In this document: piece after piece, positions 10,575 through 42,481 of the stretch
Layout of the letters: each line of letters opens with the position of its first letter
Position numbering within the stretch: position 1 is the stretch's first letter
Assembly: GCF_000309385.1 (NCBI RefSeq)
Contig: NZ_JH976538.1
Location: 251,332 to 315,331 of the forward strand
Reading direction: 5' to 3'
Length of the DNA: 64,000 nucleotides
From: Nodosilinea nodulosa PCC 7104
GTDB lineage: Bacteria > Cyanobacteriota > Cyanobacteriia > Phormidesmidales > Phormidesmidaceae
Translations under genes and position numbers: made by a program
Notes under the pieces: model-generated
Database searches by the model: none
What the model was told of the DNA's origin: nothing
What the model saw: the letters and a program-made list of their open reading frames with translations, nothing else

Positions 10575-12887
10575 ATGGCAAAGTACGCGCTCGTCATCGG
10601 TCTAGACCGATACGACCACTTCGGCAACTTAAAAAGTGCGGCCAAGGATGCAGAGGCAGTTGCCCGGCTGCTAGAGCAACATCAGTATAGAGTGACGCGA
10701 TTGCCCAGGACGCTGGTCGGAGAAAATCAGTGGGCGTTAACCCCTGATAAATCCCTCAGTCACACTGAACTTGGCAATGAACTGAAATCCTTCTTTCGAG
10801 AGCGAGCTAAGAACCAGGAGGCTATTCTCTACTTCGCCGGACATGGCTTCCGTGTGTCTGACGCGCTGACTGGAGAAGAGAGCGGATATCTAGCTACCTC
10901 TAACGCGAGCAAAGATGGGCAGAACGCAATTCCCTTTGCTTCGTTGAATAAGTTGATGGGTCAAGCGGAGCTGAGCAGTTTGGTCGTGATGATGGACTGC
11001 TGCTACGCCGGCTCTTTGTTGGAAGAGCAGCGGAGCCTTTTGCAACCTACTCAAACAATCCTCAGCCATAAGCAAAATTCCTGTCTAATTGCGGCCTGCC
11101 GAGATTTTGAACGAGCGCGGGAGGGAAAAGAACATGGCATTTTTACCACAGCCATTTTGAAAGGCTTATCTGCCGAGAATGCGGTGCAGGAGACGGTCAC
11201 GAGTAATGACCTGTTTGGCTTTGTAGAGCGGGAACTGAGAACGAGTGGGCAGGAGGTGATTCATGCGGGCATGGGTGGGGCGATCACCTTGGTTCACTAC
11301 CCTCGGCCATCAACCCTACCTGTTGAGCCATCAACCACATCTGCACGAGTCTTCATTAGCTATCGCAGTCAACCGCCCGATAGTGACCTAGCTGAAAAGT
11401 TTTACAGAGTGCTTAAGGCAGAGGGTCATGAGGTATTCATGGCTGCGGAGAGTATCCGGTTGGGGGATAACTGGTCGCAGCGCATTGACCGAGAGCTAGA
11501 GCAGTGCGATTACTTTTTACTTTTGCTGTCGCCTAAGTCAGCGACGAGCGAGATGGTGACGGAGGAAGTCCGGCGAGCGAAGGAACTGCGGGATAATCGC
11601 GACTCTGGAAAGCCGAGAATCCTGCCCGTTCGAGTGGATTTTCCGCTGTCCTCTCCGCTGAACTATGACTTGCGAGGCTATCTCAACCGGATTCAGCAGC
11701 GGGAGTGGAAGTCTGACGAAGATACGGCTCAGATTTTGCAGGAAATTTTGGCAATTTTGGGCAATCGCAACACTCCCTTTCAGGAACCCGCAGCTTCAGA
11801 GACTATTACAGAGCCTCTGACCGAACAACCGAATGCTCCGCCATCGCCTGTGGCTCCGCCAGAGCTACCAGGTGGACAAGTGGACTTAACCTCTCTCTAT
11901 TACTTAGAACGGCCACCGATAGAAAAGAATTGCTATGAAACAGTGCTGAAGCCAGGAGCGTTAATCCGGATCAAGGCTCCGCGTCAGATGGGGAAGACAT
12001 CTTTGATGTCCCGGATTTTGCGCCATGCGGAGGAGAGCGATTACCTAACTGTACCTCTCAGCTTCCAATTAGCGGATGCTGCTATCTTTTCAGATTTAGA
12101 CAAATTTCTACGATGGTTTTGCGCCAGCGTGGGGCGGCGATTACGGTTGCCCAATAAGCTCAATGACTACTGGGACGAGATTTTTGGCAGTAAGGATAAC
12201 TGTACGGCGTATCTGGAAGAGTATTTGCTGCCGGAAATTTCTAAGCCTCTGGTGTTGGGATTGGATGAAGTAGACATGGTGTTTGAGCATCCCAACATTG
12301 CAGCTGATTTTATGGGGTTGTTACGGGCGTGGCATGAATCGGCTAAAACAAATGCTTTATGGAAGAAGCTGCGGCTCGTGGTGGTTCATTCTACCGAAGT
12401 CTACATTCCGATGAATATTAACCAGTCACCGTTTAACGTGGGTTTACCGATTGAGCTGTCAGAATTTCTGCCGGAGCAGGTTTTGAATTTGGCCCATAGG
12501 CACGGACTGAATTGGGATGAGGAAGCGGTCACCCGACTAATGAAAATGGTGGGGGGACATCCTTATTTAGTGCGAGTGGCATTATATCAGGTGGCGCGAG
12601 AGGAAACGACGTTGGATAAATTGCTCACTATCGCGCCAACAGAGGCTGGGCCGTATGGCGACCACTTGCGTCGCCATTGGTGGAATTTGGAGCAGCGGGT
12701 GGAGATGGCTGAGGCCGCTAGACGAGTGGTGGCTTCGGCTGGCCCTGTTCGGTTGGAACCGATTCAGGCATTTCAGCTGCACAGCATGGGGATTGTGCAT
12801 TTGCAGGGCAATGAGGTCATTCCCCGGTGTGATTTGTATCGAAGATATTTTTCTGACCGACTCAATGTAGGGAGAGCCAACTCATGA
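10575..12887 (+). CDS. Caspase-like peptidase / TIR / AAA_35 ATPase fusion
   Basis: 770 residues with three modules. Residues 1-235 are a peptidase C14 (caspase/metacaspase-like) domain: [10 protein letters not shown] at the start, His90 in YFAGHGFR and Cys143 in MMDCCYAGS form the expected dyad. Residues ~257-392 are a TIR domain ([42 protein letters not shown]) with Glu331 at the NADase position, although the usual Trp before it is Met327. Residues ~430-760 are an AAA_35-type ATPase (Walker A PRQMGKTS ~469-476, Walker B LGLDEVD ~561-567). This suggests a protein that can cleave targets and deplete NAD when its ATPase module is triggered. The stop overlaps the next ATG (ATGA), so both are co-translated. 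Confidence 0.9.
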
Positions 12888-15800
12888 GCTATGACTATCA
12901 GGTTGGGGGCAGTCTACCTGCTGATGCACCAAGCTATGTAAAGCGACAAGCGGATGATGAGCTGTACGAAAAGCTTAAAGCTGGGGAGTTTTGCTATGTG
13001 CTGAATTCCCGCCAGATGGGGAAATCTAGCCTGCGGGTGCAAGTGATGCAGCGCCTAGAAGCGGAGGGAGTATCCTGTACGGCGATTGACCTGACACAGA
13101 TTGGGGGAGATGAAAACGTCACGGCTGATCAATGGTATGCCGGTTTCGTCCGCAAGCTTTGGAATAGTTTTGACTTGACGACTCAAGTCAACTTCCGTCA
13201 ATGGTGGCGTGAGCGGGATGAAATCTCTTCAGTACAGCGATTGGGCGAATTTGTTGAAACATTTCTACTGGAAGAGCTCTCTCAGCCCGTCGCTATCTTC
13301 ATTGATGAAGTTGATACCGTTCAGAGCTTATCCTTTTCCCTTGATGATTTCTTTACTCTGATTCGTGACTTTTATAATCAACGAGCTGATAAACCTGCTT
13401 ATCAACGGTTGACCTTTTGTTTCCTTGGCGTAGCTACTCCATCTGATCTGATTCGAGATAAAACCCGTACACCTTTCAATATTGGTCACGGCATTTCTCT
13501 CCGTGGCTTTCAACTTGATGAGGCAGAACCACTCATCGGAGGTCTAGAAGGAATCGCTGAGAATCCTGAAGCTGTTCTACAGGTAATTCTTAGCTGGACG
13601 AACGGACAACCGTTTCTAACCCAGAAGCTCTGCCGATTAGCTCAAATGCTGGACAGGATTCCTGATGGTGAGGAAGAAACAGCAATCTCACAGCTAGTGC
13701 AAGTTCGCATTATTGATAACTGGGAAGCGCAAGATGTACCAGAGCATTTGAGAACCATACGAGATCGTCTCTTTCGTGATGAGATGACTGTAGGAGAGCG
13801 ATTGGGTCTATATCAGCAGATTTTGTCTGGGGAAACAGTTCTGGCAAGCAGCCGTCCCGAGCAGATTGAACTGCGCCTCTCAGGCATCGTAATTGAACAT
13901 AGTCGTACCTTACATCCTCACAACCGCATCTACGAAACAATTTTCTCCACAGCTTGGGTAACTGCGGCTTTAGCACGCCAGCGTCCTTACGCAGCGGATA
14001 TTTATGCATGGTTGCAGAGCAAACCACGATCAGATGCTTACTTGCTGCAAGGAGCAAAGCTAGAGGCAGCATTGGAATGGGCTGAGGCGCGAAGCCTTAG
14101 CAAGCAAGACTATCAGTATTTGGTGGAGAGCCAGAAGCTAGGGCTGCGGCAGGAACTCGAATATAGCCAAGCAGCTGTGGTTCAGGTGAATGAACAGCTA
14201 GCAGAGCGAAATCAGGCATTAGAACGCATTAATCAGCAGTTAGAAACAGCTCGACAGGAATTGAGACGGGTACGGCGACTTTTCCGCTGGGTAATTGGAG
14301 TGGGCCTTAGCCTATTGAGTGTATTAGCTTTCGGGGCCTGGAGAGCAGTAGATTTACAAGCGAAGGCTGTCGAGGCAAGGGATCAGGCAATTGAAGAGAA
14401 AAAGGATGCTGTAGCTGATCTTCAGGAAACGGCACTAGAAAATGTAGAGTTAGAAGATGAGAACAATGATCTAGAAAACAACAACCAAACGTTAACGAAA
14501 GAAAATACTACTCTCGAAGTAGTGGTAACAGAAGCCCAGCAAACCCTAAACCATACTCAAGGAAATTTAAAAGAAACGCAATTAGCATTAGGGCTAACAG
14601 AAACAACTTTACAAAGTACAAAGCAAGAGGTTGAGCTTGCCAGGGAAGAGTCGGAGGAGCAACGCGATAGAGCTAATAAGGAGCAAGCTAGAGCTAACCA
14701 GCAACGGCGGAACTTGGAAGATGTCTTTCCAGTAACTGAAGCAGTGTTCAAATTTGCCAATGAGGAAACGCGCGATGATGCCCTTTCGCAGCTTTCCAAG
14801 ATTTTGGATGAGAATCCTGAAAATTCGGCTGTATGGATTGTACGAGGAGAATTTCTGAATCAGATTGGAAGGCATGAAGAAGCCCTAGAACATTTTGAGC
14901 GAGTTACGTCTGAACTAGACCCAGATAACTTTTTAGCTCATTTTGGAAGAGGCAATGCTTTAGCAGCTCTAGGAAGGGTAGAAGAGGCAATCCAAGCTTA
15001 TGACTATACTATTGAACTCAACAAAGAATACTATCAGGCATGGACGAACAAAGGCAATGTCTTGTTGGGGGCTAATAAAATTGATGAATCTCTTGTGTCC
15101 TACGCTAAAGCATTGGAAATCAGTCCAGATTATTCACCTGCGTTAGAGGCCCTCAAAAGTGCTTTTGAAAATCTTCTTACAGCGAGTGAAGAAGGATTTT
15201 CTCTTTCTATCATTTCCACATTTGATATTGCCGCCATTAGTGGAGGAATGAGCAGGAGTCAGAATCTGCGACCATCTAGTGGCACTGATATCTTTGATGA
15301 AAAAATTAATCCGCTAGTTCTTGATATTACAGAGCAAATACTCAAAACAAATCCAAATGATAAAGATTTTCTAGTCTATAGAGGTTTAGCCCTACTACAA
15401 ATAGGAGAGGTAGAGGATGGGCTTGCGCATTTTAGAGCCGCAGTGGCACTGAGTCCCGATGAAGTTAATCCCTATGCTTATATTGGCCAAGCACTTGCGC
15501 AGTATACGCTCGGTCATCCGCAAGAAGCAACTTCATCTATTGAACTAGCTTTCTCTATTGATCAAAATACCCATAGAGTTATCACTCTAAACCCTGATCA
15601 ATTTTATTCTTTAGCTTATTTTACAAGAGGCTTAATCAAGTCATCTTTAAATAACTTTGAAGAAGCAATTAGCGATTTTGATCAAGCAGAGACTCTTGCT
15701 ATTAATGATGCCAGTACTTATGCTTATGTCCTGACTTGTCGAGCAGTTATTTATATTCAGTTAGGCAAATATTCAGAAGCAATTCCTGATCTTGAACAGG

Positions 15801-17764
15801 TAGTTGCCTTAAGCGCAGATGATCCAAAGGCGACTGCACAAGCGTATGTGCTACGAGGCTTCATACATACTGAATCCGGCCAGTATGAAGAGGCAATTTC
15901 AGCATTTGACCAAGCAATTACCACTGCCCCTGAAAATATCGATGTCGCTCCTTACGCTTATCTTGGTCGTGGGAGCGCTTTGAGTGGATTGGGTCGGTAT
16001 GAAGAAGCCATCTCAGAGTATGATCGGGCAGTCAATCTCAAACCCAATTACTCCCTTGCTTATCTCAATCGAGGAACGGTTCTACAAACCCTGGGTCGGC
16101 TGTCAGAAGCCCTTGAAGCATTTGATCGCTCCATTCAGATCAATCAAGATTGGGGTGCTGTCAATATCAGCAGTGCCTATAACTATCGAGCAGCTATTTA
16201 TATTCAGTTAGGCAAATATTCAGAAGCAATTTCTGATCTTGAACAGGTGATTGCCTTAAGCTCTGATGATCCAAATACAACTGCACAAGCGTATGTGCTG
16301 CGAGGTTTCATACATATTGAATCTGGTCAGCCTGAAGAGGCAGTTTCAGCCTTTGATCAAGCAATTGCCATCGCTCCTGACAATGCCGATGTTATTCCTC
16401 AAGCCTATATCGGTCGGGGAAATGCTCTAGGTGGACTAGGTCGGTTTGAAGAAGCAATTTTAGAGTTTGATCAAGCAATCAATCTCAACTCCAATTATTC
16501 CCTTGCTTATCACAATCGAGGAGAGGCTTTGCAAAAATTGGGCCGACTACAAGAAGCCCTTGAAGCATTTGATCGTTCTATTCAGGGCAACCAAGATTGG
16601 GGCGCTCTCAACATTGCAAGTGCTTATAACTATCGAGCAGTTATTTATATTCAGTTAGGCAAATATTCAGAAGCAATTTCTGATCTTGAACAGGTGATTG
16701 CCTTAAGCTCTGATGATCCAAATACAACTGCACAAGCGTATGTGCTGCGAGGTTTCATACATATTGAATCTGGTCAGCCTGAAGAGGCAGTTTCAGCCTT
16801 TGATCAAGCAATTGCCATCGCTCCTGACAATGCCGATGTTATTCCTCAAGCCTATATCGGTCGGGGAAATGCTCTAGGTGGACTAGGTCGGTTTGAAGAA
16901 GCAATTTCAGAGTTTGATCAAGCAATCAATCTCAACTCCAATTATTCCCTTGCTTATCACAATCGAGGAGAGGCTTTGCAAAAACTGGGCCGACTACCAG
17001 AAGCCCTTGAAGCATTTAATCGCTCTATTGAGGTCAATCAAGATTGGGGTGCTCTTAACATTGTCAGCGCCTATAGCTATCGAGCAGTGATTTATATGCA
17101 GCTAGGTCAGTACTCAGAAGCAAGTTCTGAGATTGATCAGGCGATTGCTTTAAGTTCAGGTGATCCAAATGCGACTGCACAAGCGTATGTGCTGCGAGGC
17201 TTCATACATATTGAATCTGGTCAGCCTGAAGAGGCAGGTTTAGCATTTGATCAAGCAATTGCCATCGCTCCTGAAAACGTTGATGTCATTTCTCAAGCTT
17301 ACGTTGGTCGTGGGAACGCTCTAAGTAGATCGGGTCTGTTTGAAGGAGCAATTTCAGAGTATAACCAGGCAATCGACCTCGACCCCAATTATTCTGGTGC
17401 TTATTATCGGCGAGGAGAGGCTTATAGCAAACTTAGTGATTGGGAGGCCGCGTCTGAAAACTTTACTCAAGCTATTCAAACTAATCGAAATTGGGGAAGC
17501 ATTAATCTTGAGATGGCATATACTCAGCGCGGAGACGTCTATGTTGAATTGGGTCAGTTCCAGAAAGCAATCTCTGATTATTCTCAAACAATAGTGCTCA
17601 ATCCTGAGAATCCTTTGGCTTATGGTAATCGTGGTCGAGCCTATCGACTCATCAGTCGTTTTGAAGACGCCGTTACAGATCTCACCTATGCTTTAGACCT
17701 GGCCCCTAATACGGCTTGGATGCAAGAAGAGCTGGAAAAAGCACGCCAAAGAATTAGTGATTAG
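12884..17764 (+). CDS. AAA_35 ATPase with transmembrane helix, coiled coil and TPR array
   Basis: 1626 residues. The N-terminal AAA_35 domain (Gly46-Lys47-Ser48 in SRQMGKSS, Walker B FIDEVDTV at ~139-146) resembles the C-terminal module of the preceding protein. A coiled coil (~395-455) precedes one transmembrane helix at ~469-488 ([18 protein letters not shown]). A long coiled coil (~490-610) and then some twenty TPR motifs run to the C-terminus. Residues ~952-1548 are four tandem 149-residue units. It is translationally coupled to the caspase-TIR protein. A reasonable reading is a membrane-anchored partner or sensor holding the effector, with the TPR array as recognition surface; this is inference. 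Confidence 0.88.
15740..17527 (+). repeat. Four tandem 447-bp units in the TPR coding region
   Basis: The phrase CGAGCAG recurs at 15740, 16187, 16634 and 17081, exactly 447 bp (149 codons) apart, and the phase continues to 17528. Units 2 and 3 are almost identical over long runs (for example from GGCAAATATTCAGAAGCAAT onward), while units 1 and 4 are more diverged. This pattern fits recent unit duplication or gene conversion in the sensor part of the gene. Confidence 0.9.
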
Positions 17765-21489: not shown

Positions 21490-22433
21490 GGGCGTGTTTT
21501 AAAACTAAGCCCACATCATGATGGAGGCTAGAGTTAGCATGGCCAGGTAGTTTTCAGCCTTTTTCTCATAGCGAGTTGCGATGCGGCGGTACTGCTTCAA
21601 GTGATTGAAACACCGCTCAACTTGATTGCGCTGGCGGTATAGCGCCTTGTCAAAGGTACCGCGTCGCCGTTCATTGCGTTTGCGAGGAATGGTCACCCGA
21701 ATTCCCCGCCGTCGCAAATAGCGACGAATGGAGCCACTGCTGTAAGCTTTATCCCCACTGACCCGCTTGGGACGTAAGCGCGGTCGTCCCCCGTGAGGGC
21801 GTTTCACCGCGCCTTGCTCCATCAATGGTTCAAACACGACCGCCTCATGACGCTCACCGACGGTCAGCAGAAAGGTCATCGGTAAGCCGTTTCCCTCGCA
21901 GCGCAGATGTAGTTTGGTGCTAAAGCCCCCTTGGGACCGTCCTAAGGCCTCTCGGATTTGCACCTGTTGAACCGCAGAGAGGTCCGAATCGGGCTCTAGG
22001 TCCCCCTTTTTGCCCCAGCGGCATGCTGGTGGGCACGGATGACACTGCCATCGACAAAATGAATATCCCAATTGAGCTTGCCCTCGGCATCGGCCTTCGC
22101 TTGGAGGCCTGTGAGCACCTGTTGCCATAGGCCAATCTTGCGCCAGTGATAAAACCGCCCGGCAACGGTTGACCAAGCCCCATAGCGCTCCGGCAAGTCT
22201 CGCCATGGCGCACCCGTGCGCAAAATCCACAGGATGCCATTGATGATCAGGCGATGGTCTTTGGCTGGGCAGCCCGTGGGAGGTTTTTGCGGTGGCAGCA
22301 GGGGTTCAATCTGGTTCCATTGGTTTTCGCTCATTTCACCCCGACGAGGGGCGGGTTGAGGTGGAAGAATCATCGCAGTTCAAGAGTTTATTCGTACTAC
22401 TTCCATTCTGCCAAAGAGTTTTAAAACACGCCC
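21490..22433 (-). mobile_element. IS5-family insertion sequence, IS427-like group, complete
   Basis: A 944-bp element with perfect terminal inverted repeats GGGCGTGTTTTAAAACT at both ends, flanked by a TA duplication (21488-21489 and 22434-22435), as expected for IS427-type elements. Two overlapping transposase frames are joined by a slippery run. It sits inside the helicase-like gene. Confidence 0.88.
21505..22373 (-). CDS. IS427-type transposase made by programmed -1 frameshift
   Basis: orfA (21996-22373, 125 residues) starts MILPPQPAPRRGEMSENQW and carries the DUF4096-type domain and the first acidic site IHFVDGSVIRAHQH. orfB (21505-22230 open frame) carries SGDKAYSSGSIR (second Asp) and NQVERCFNHLKQYRRIATRY (Glu). 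At 22006-22012 the minus strand reads CAAAAAG before a run of G; slipping back one base changes AKRGT-stop into AKKGDLEP and gives a fusion of about 289 residues. Both frames are intact, so the enzyme is probably active. Confidence 0.85.
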
Positions 22434-22492: not shown

Positions 22493-22777
22493 CTAACCCA
22501 GCTGCCGATACCGTAGCAGGTAGCTAAACACCTCCCCCTGCTCCGGGGTAATCAAAATTCCCGACTCCGGTATCGTAAACTGGCGGCTCCACTCCCGCTG
22601 CTCGGTATACCTCAGCAAATGCAGGTGGTTGATCGCCCCTCGCACCCCTTCCGGCGACCCAATCACCAGATGGCGCAACCGCTCTCGCCCCGGCTGACTC
22701 TCCGAATTTGCAAGCAACAGCGGGTTCGTCGCCTCGCCCCAACGGGCAAGCGCTACTAAATATGGCAAACACAACAT
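22493..22777 (-). CDS. Cyanobacterial small protein of the IGSPEGVRGAI family, copy 1
   Basis: 94 residues from ATG 22775-22777, chosen because a GGAGG lies 8 nt upstream; a TTG 15 bp further up overlaps that site. The conserved part is RERLRHLVIGSPEGVRGAIN, then LHLLRY, EWS and TPEQGEVFSYLLRYRQL. It is shared almost residue for residue with the copy at 41934-42215, while residues ~3-18 are unrelated. Similar short proteins are, as I recall, common in cyanobacteria and uncharacterised. No membrane segment or enzyme motif is seen. The upstream structured leader is conserved with the gene, so the two form one unit. Confidence 0.7.
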   Translation of the reverse strand: MLCLPYLVALARWGEATNPLLLANSESQPGRERLRHLVIGSPEGVRGAINHLHLLRYTEQREWSRQFTIPESGILITPEQGEVFSYLLRYRQLG

Positions 22778-23040
22778 TAGGGTTTCCTCCAAAGAAACGG
22801 ATGGGTAGGAAACCCAAAATTTGGCCGCTCCCAGACATAAGCGTATCGGAGCGGCCAGAGTAACATAATACTCAGCCTCCGAGACAGCCGTGTACTGCCG
22901 AAGGGGTCAGCCGCTGGTTGGTGTTGGTAGCACCTTCCAGTGGCGTTCGACCAAATTTTGGGAACCGAGCTACACGCAGGCAGCTCTAAATCAGAAATTT
23001 AGCCCATTGCGATCGCCTAAGCAAGTCAAAATTGCTACAA
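22778..23040 (-). promoter_or_regulatory. Conserved structured leader of the small-protein cassette, copy 1
   Basis: About 260 bp conserved with 42216-42481. In RNA (minus-strand) order: a conserved block (CGCCACTGGAAGGTG, CCAGCGGCTGACCCCTTCG), a 9-bp hairpin (GGCCGCTCC with GGAGCGGCC; 22823-22831 and 22848-22856), then a 9-bp hairpin (GGGTTTCCT with AGGAAACCC; 22780-22788 and 22807-22815) whose 3' arm contains part of the GGAGG ribosome site. Pairing is kept in copy 2 by paired changes. No known riboswitch class was matched. Confidence 0.7.
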
Positions 23041-41933: not shown

Positions 41934-42215
41934 TCAAAGTTGCCGATAGCGGAGCAGGTAGCTAAACACTTCCCCCTGCGCTGGGGTAATCAAAATTCCC
42001 GACGCTGGGATGGTTACCAACCAGCTCCACTCGTGCTGTTCGGCGTAGCGGAGCAGATGCAGGTGGTTAATAGCCCCTCGCACGCCTTCGGGCGAGCCAA
42101 TCACCAGATGGCGCAATCGCTCCCGCTCCGGTTGGGTGTCGGGAGTTTCGAGGCATAGTGGGTTTAGGTACCGGGTGCTTTCAAAGCACCCGGTACCTGA
42201 GAGATAAGACAACAT
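41934..42215 (-). CDS. Cyanobacterial small protein of the IGSPEGVRGAI family, copy 2
   Basis: 93 residues from ATG 42213-42215, with GGAGG 7 nt upstream. The C-terminal ~65 residues (RERLRHLVIGSPEGVRGAIN, LHLLRYAEQHEWS, SGILITPAQGEVFSYLLRYR) match copy 1 at 22493-22777, with only a handful of changes. Residues 3-18 differ completely because a 33-bp palindromic repeat lies there and encodes SGTGCFESTRY. Function unknown. It follows the cysteine desulfurase-like gene tail to tail. Confidence 0.7.
   Translation of the reverse strand: MLSYLSGTGCFESTRYLNPLCLETPDTQPERERLRHLVIGSPEGVRGAINHLHLLRYAEQHEWSWLVTIPASGILITPAQGEVFSYLLRYRQL
42166..42198. repeat. Perfect 16-bp inverted repeat inside small-protein copy 2
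   Basis: AGGTACCGGGTGCTTT (42166-42181), one C, then its exact complement (42183-42198). It lies within the N-terminal codons of the small protein, in frame and without a stop. The transcript would form a 16-bp stem just after the start codon. Confidence 0.95.
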
Positions 42216-42481
42216 TGGGCTTCCTCCAATAGATACGGATGGGTAGGTAAGCCCAAAAATTTAGCCGCCCCAGACGTTGTGCAGTTCGGGGCGGCCTGGG
42301 CAATAATAGCCCTAGCCTCCGCGACAGCTACTACCTGTCGAAGGGGTCAGCCGCTGGTTGGTGGTACCAACACCTTCCAGTGGCGTTTGACTAAATTTTG
42401 GGGAAACACAGCTGCACGCACACAGCCATTCAGCAAAAATACCCCATCTGTACGCCGAGCGCAAGTTAAAAATGCTACAGG
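42216..42481 (-). promoter_or_regulatory. Conserved structured leader of the small-protein cassette, copy 2
   Basis: Homologous to 22778-23040. The upstream hairpin is GCCGCCCC with GGGGCGGC (42264-42271 and 42288-42295). The start-proximal hairpin is GGGCTT plus CCT (42217-42225) with AGG, a bulged T and AAGCCC (42245-42254). The GGAGG ribosome site (complement of 42223-42227) is again half inside the stem. CGCCACTGGAAGGTG and CCAGCGGCTGACCCCTTCG are identical in both copies. Strong conservation of non-coding DNA indicates function at RNA level. Confidence 0.7.

Follow-up and report, generated by a model that had tools for sequence, protein, structure and literature searches.

Why does the same block of DNA occur twice within a short stretch of the Nodosilinea nodulosa PCC 7104 genome, and what does the block do? 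We analysed a window of 64,000 nucleotides (the whole stretch of DNA under study). The initial annotation had claimed duplicated blocks at 22493-23040 and 41934-42481, and we found the block at both places, on the minus strand in each case.

Two copies in the window

The pairwise alignment of the two copies showed the identical leader blocks that had been claimed, and the similarity stops at the stop codons of the ORFs. Two paired changes between the copies had also been pointed out. Both are real: CTCC/GGAG versus CCCC/GGGG is located in hairpin 3, and TTT/AAA versus CTT/AAG in the hairpin that bears the Shine-Dalgarno (SD) sequence (Table 1). The N-terminal codons differ as described, and at least part of the cause is an in-frame palindrome in copy 2. 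Since the same genome contains 31 homologues of the small protein and 24 leaders, the pair in the window is far from a chance occurrence.

Table 1. Features of the two copies, with positions in the window
Feature	Position	Strand	Evidence
Copy 1, small ORF, 94 aa, family-1 protein (RHLVIGSPEGVRGAINHLHLL...)	22493..22777	-	covarying leader and hidden SD directly upstream
Copy 1, SD hairpin GGGTTTCC/GGAAACCC, SD GGAGG at 22786-22790	22780..22815	-	
Copy 1, RNA leader core	22813..22962	-	covariance model R1, 147.5 bits
Copy 1, closing helix P0, 5' strand CCCAAAATTTG	22952..22962	-	11 consecutive pairs; P0 covariation
Copy 1, closing helix P0, 3' strand CAAATTTTGGG	22813..22823	-	
Copy 1, hairpin 1, hypervariable loop flanked by GGTG and CACC	22910..22944	-	
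Copy 1, hairpin 2, hypervariable loop; adjoins conserved unpaired CTGACCCC/CTAACCCC	22876..22904	-	
Copy 1, hairpin 3 GGCCGCTCC/GGAGCGGCC	22823..22856	-	
Copy 1, small hairpin GAGCT...AGCTC on the 5' side of P0	22967..22986	-	read from sequence
Copy 2, small ORF, 93 aa	41934..42215	-	
Copy 2, SD-bearing hairpin	42217..42254	-	
Copy 2, RNA leader core	42253..42402	-	covariance model R1, 144.5 bits
Copy 2, P0 5' strand CCCAAAA	42396..42402	-	7 consecutive pairs with UUUUGGG
Copy 2, hairpin 1	42350..42384	-	
Copy 2, hairpin 2	42316..42344	-	
Copy 2, hairpin 3	42263..42296	-	
Copy 2, perfect palindrome, 16+1+16 nt, in frame in N-terminal codons	42166..42198	-	

Hairpins comparable to the small 5' hairpin upstream of P0 were recognised by eye in two other cassette types. 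The palindrome of copy 2 is an inserted element and does not belong to the conserved cassette. We found perfect 33-nt palindromes (16+1+16) of differing sequence, in frame at the same N-terminal site, in the window (42166-42198) and at two other loci (L007, 1730-1762; L010, 1470-1502). Rickettsia palindromic elements are likewise in-frame palindromic inserts; unlike them, the palindromes here are a local feature of cyanobacterial type-A copies.

Elsewhere in the window (10575-17761), a caspase (C14)-TIR-AAA_35 protein adjoins a 1626-aa AAA_35-TPR protein, and this layout is reminiscent of bacterial immune-type genes.

A conserved leader RNA class outside Rfam

The leader core, about 150 nt long, consists of three hairpins closed by the long-range helix P0, and it contains nearly fixed unpaired stretches, for example CTAACCCC between hairpins 1 and 2. 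Both leaders folded better than their dinucleotide shuffles, with z values of -6.1 (copy 1) and -2.7 (copy 2). For the covariance model R1, we used 23 leaders, which belong to three sequence types.

In a MAFFT alignment of 23 leaders, 16/35 pairs showed changes on both sides, with a covariation score of 0.294 (0.169 shuffled, at most 0.111 slid). This alignment is free of the bias towards its own structure that a model-fitted alignment carries; model-aligned, 100 leaders showed changes on both sides in 29/35 pairs and a score of 0.389 (0.159 shuffled, at most 0.071 slid). The observed score was reached by none of 500 shuffles, which bears out the claim of an RNA structure under selection.

We compared Rfam covariance models with leaders of several types, and no leader match was found at E values up to 1. 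At E up to 5, the only match (to nuoG) falls inside the ORF and was set aside as chance. At one locus (L058, 1825-1896, genome G029), Rfam gave a symR-like match below threshold (41.7 bits, E 7e-5) that overlaps the leader on the opposite strand; we judged it a chance match of a hairpin. The motif is not obviously described in the main texts of Weinberg 2010 and of the 26-genome and 50-genome ncRNA papers. The leader represents a class of conserved cis-acting RNAs that Rfam does not contain. With a covarying leader, no Rfam match and the same protein family behind the leader, the proposal of a new cis-regulated small protein family has held up well.

Among the nearest known systems are Downstream-peptide RNA and glnA RNA. 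Downstream-peptide RNAs are cyanobacterial elements found upstream of short ORFs (17-100 aa) without any known family (PMC2864571). The RNA found here resembles Downstream-peptide RNA (RF01704) and glnA RNA in being a cyanobacterial 5' leader, but differs from them in its lack of an Rfam match, in its three hairpins with a long-range closing helix, and in its association with one paralogous protein family of up to dozens of copies per genome. Downstream-peptide RNA and glnA RNA were later shown to be glutamine riboswitches.

A survey of the genus (28 genomes) gave 0 to about 30 copies per genome. R1 matches were present in 35/59 relatives, and in 71/291 genomes (41/130 genera) of the class, the cyanobacteria; with at most 10 candidates scored per genome, the copy numbers of the class survey are lower bounds. 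Genome G058, from another family, has 15 leader matches; its copies are scattered, and most of those inspected are nearly identical. Carriers found by a protein search include Leptolyngbya sp. PCC 7375, Adonisia turfae and L. cf. ectocarpi LEGE 11479, the last with more than 30 loci by this search. An R1 match was found in 66/82 loci scanned, 80 of which came from the protein search.

Shine-Dalgarno hairpin and closing helix

In 158/159 leaders, a predicted hairpin beside the start codon has the SD in its stem. The complementarity of the P0 arms reached a median of -23.3 kcal/mol, against a mean of -10.9 (sd 3.3) kcal/mol for shuffled arms. In both window copies, one GGG (22813-22815 in copy 1) closes the P0 3' strand and opens the 5' arm of the SD hairpin. 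Because the P0 3' strand runs into this arm, the two structures are predicted to compete and could not both form fully. Three strands are arranged in this way in all three types, though their sequences are unrelated: type A has GGG/CCC, type B CAGAAC / GTTCTG / CAGAAC, and type C CCCCG / CGGGG / CCCC.

The SD-hairpin state was predicted to lie below the P0 state by 6.6 kcal/mol in copy 1 and by 5.5 kcal/mol in copy 2, and in folds of the window copies with P0 enforced, the SD was still partly paired. Outward extension of P0 beyond the model in a fixed register gave 5.61 pairs, slightly above the 5.15 expected by chance, and was clear in some types (CGTTCT, 7.5; GTTCTG, 6.9). The sharing of at least 3 nt by P0 and the SD arm, considered as proof of a switch, was uninformative (84% for shuffled arms).

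The predicted competition between P0 and the SD hairpin suggests that the leader most likely acts as a translational, riboswitch-like switch that is off by default. Judging from the modelled structures, we consider it probable that the leader controls translation in cis, in the manner of a riboswitch, and stands before a multiplied small-protein gene. The block would be one copy of a much-repeated transcription unit, in which a small-protein gene follows a structured 5' leader. Without a trigger, the SD hairpin would win and translation would be off. Binding of a trigger (metabolite, ion or protein) to the conserved core would stabilise the core together with P0; the SD hairpin would then open, and the small protein would be made. 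The term riboswitch-like refers to the mechanism and makes no claim to riboswitch identity, and the ligand is a putative one.

In its predicted anatomy, the leader is similar to orphan translational riboswitch candidates, which also combine a covarying 5' leader, a conserved core and a competing hairpin that hides the SD. Unlike those candidates, it has two hairpin loops that are hypervariable between copies in one genome, and the protein that it would regulate has no known function. To our knowledge, more than 20 switches of one class on one paralogous family per genome would be unusual among known riboswitches.

Mobility, partner genes and hypervariable loops

The block had also been suggested to be a small mobile or immunity unit. 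In its general form, this would be a non-autonomous cassette, mobile or selfish and akin to a MITE or a toxin-antitoxin unit, whose leader serves its own spread or addiction. Copy number varies from none to about 30 within one genus, and the near-identical copies of G058 are scattered as such a cassette would be. At the copy 2 site, 19/19 other genus genomes with the neighbouring aminotransferase gene were without the cassette (two of these loci are short). In addition, two leaderless homologues on Nostocales plasmids have a small gene upstream on the other strand, ParG-like or ribbon-helix-helix-like as judged by annotation and by eye.

However, no terminal repeats, no target duplication and no transposase of its own were seen for the cassette, and the joined flanks of 11 copies revealed no spanning empty site in the 28 genus genomes. 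The upstream flank of one copy is conserved in many genomes, which suggests an orthologous, inherited copy and speaks against mobility. As had been stated, neither copy contains a transposase within the block. A transposase of the IS4/5 family, split into DUF4096 and DDE parts (window 21505-22373), begins 120 bp beyond the copy 1 stop; no shared transposase was suggested among the other copies inspected. Weighing the variable copy number and the absence at the copy 2 site against the missing empty site, repeats and transposase, we regard the mobile unit as unlikely. The immunity unit was not sustained either: the small-protein cassette has no PADLOC or PHROGs match and no relatives in phage and viral contigs. 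The many copies per genome and the structured RNA upstream of a small protein gene recall type III toxin-antitoxin systems (ToxIN). Unlike the tandem antitoxin repeats of ToxIN, the cassettes inspected by eye have a single leader per gene, and PADLOC gave no match.

Outside genome G054, the same protein family was found behind the leader in 98/100 loci, mostly 25-60 nt from the end of the R1 model; one exception is cut by a contig end, and the other has an ORF remnant about 1.5 kb off. In distant families, 23/28 loci had the leader followed by the same protein family (exceptions include one locus at a contig end, two that have no ORF, one whose leader precedes a long unrelated ORF, and one with a weak model match), as did 20/20 further distant loci; here too the distance was mostly 25-60 nt. 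In G054, 18/25 RNA copies precede a different small-protein family (about 125 aa, ...FEQWAQVLFVHRKDRGGQFISYR...; loci L117, L126, L130, L134, L138 and L181-L192), mostly 90-400 nt upstream of it and without the same SD arrangement. This second family has 47 copies, 18 of them preceded by the RNA, and no significant match in Pfam. The RNA is therefore a module able to change its partner.

The initial annotation had called for a covariance search, asking whether the RNA always precedes the protein family. It nearly always does, but G054 and a few single loci differ. Absence of covariation, a match to a known Rfam family, and leaders without the ORF had been named as observations that would speak against the proposal. 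Covariation is significant and no Rfam match was found, but leaders without the ORF do occur in G054 and at a few single loci.

Several single loci are recorded here in their own right. At L190 (G054), a small ORF of yet another, third kind (MTRSVYTFGMLPVGATFYYLGHAALKLAHGEG...) lies behind the RNA match and has no match in Pfam. L120, L236 and L246 have the RNA without a small ORF, and two of the three come from genomes of family f11. A terminator-like hairpin lies behind the RNA of L236, which suggests a stand-alone RNA or a lost gene. At L233 (G177), the ORF about 206 nt behind the leader resembles an EgtB-type enzyme, judged by sequence only; the seven other leader copies of G177 precede the usual small protein. 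In the genome of the window (L085, C1, about 2423828-2425776), about 1.5 kb of other sequence lies between the leader and the rest of the ORF, which would fit the entry of an insertion sequence into the N-terminal codons.

The small protein itself gave no profile match in Pfam, NCBIfam, PHROGs or PADLOC. Its AlphaFold model (pLDDT 77) has a variable N-terminus and a strand-helix-strand core, and the fold search returned no significant structural neighbour (best Foldseek E 0.11, best Z 4.5), a negative that is no evidence against a known fold. A second structure prediction, which rested on 7 sequences, added nothing, and short, weak matches to designed proteins in a PDB sequence search were rejected. 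Six intact homologues without a leader, those inspected in the genome of the window (L012, L013, L017, L074, L075 and L082), each adjoin a divergent HTH_3/XRE gene. Because leaderless copies adjoin an XRE-type regulator gene instead, the small protein is probably wanted only under a specific condition. We infer that leader and XRE regulator are replaceable means of tight control over a conditional protein.

Ribosomal proteins bind their own leaders and control their own translation, and the small protein could act in the same manner on its leader. The almost complete linkage between the RNA and the protein family in different cyanobacterial families would fit such feedback, as would the predicted core, whose size and type are as in nucleic-acid-binding folds, although the matches are weak (Z at most 4.5). 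But an unrelated family stands behind the same RNA in most G054 copies, leaderless paralogues use XRE regulators, and loops 1 and 2 vary freely between copies whose proteins remain similar. We therefore find feedback distinctly unlikely. A transcription attenuator, in which hairpin 3 and a U-rich stretch form an intrinsic terminator and P0 sequesters the U-run, is very unlikely. Hairpin 3 is GC-rich, and in types A and B the sequence behind it is AAGTTTTTGGG / GGGTTTTCGCG. However, the U-runs are short and interrupted, hairpin 3 was not among the terminators listed by a scan of copy 1, and translation is the level to which the conserved SD hairpin points.

The loops of hairpins 1 and 2 raise the further question of whether each copy is addressed separately. 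In G058, loops 1 and 2 differ between copies at 0.61-0.62 of sites, compared with 0.166 of fourfold ORF sites, and type-B copies of the genome of the window show the same trend (0.525/0.426 vs 0.301). An exact reverse complement was present for 18/55 distinct loop-1 sequences, against 9.7 expected with ends kept (p about 0.007). Given this expectation, the signal is only modest; a first test by shuffling (18 vs 0.39) had been too lenient and was discarded. The reverse-complement forms are compatible with inversion between inverted-repeat stems.

This variability and the reverse complements would suit an RNA-addressed control, in which loops 1 and 2 serve as a copy-specific address, read in trans by an antisense or kissing RNA, while the core is no more than the scaffold. 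However, complementary loop pairs were not enriched within genomes (0.21% within vs 0.54% between genomes), so a network of complementary loops within genomes is unsupported. Kissing of loops 1 and 2 in one molecule was also rejected, since the two are not complementary (2.67 vs 2.73). Mutation of hairpin loops and inversion at replication could give the pattern without any function, and we hold such addressing to be very improbable. Diversifying selection or a mutation hotspot may have caused the hypervariability. The most far-reaching proposal, a multi-copy, RNA-gated system specific to cyanobacteria in which each copy is individually addressed by its loops and answers its own trans RNA or phage-derived signal, while the protein is a conditional effector (stress, immunity, competition) controlled mostly by RNA and elsewhere by XRE repressors, appears highly improbable.

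Taken together, the RNA class is present in about a quarter of the sampled cyanobacterial genomes, with unusually high copy number. If the translational switch is real, this would be a cis-regulatory RNA class absent from Rfam and sitting nearly always on one uncharacterised small-protein family, so that the sensed signal and the role of the protein would be directly testable. The hypervariable loops in otherwise near-identical copies pose a separate evolutionary question, and a real switch would also provide a natural library of dozens of related switches within single genomes.
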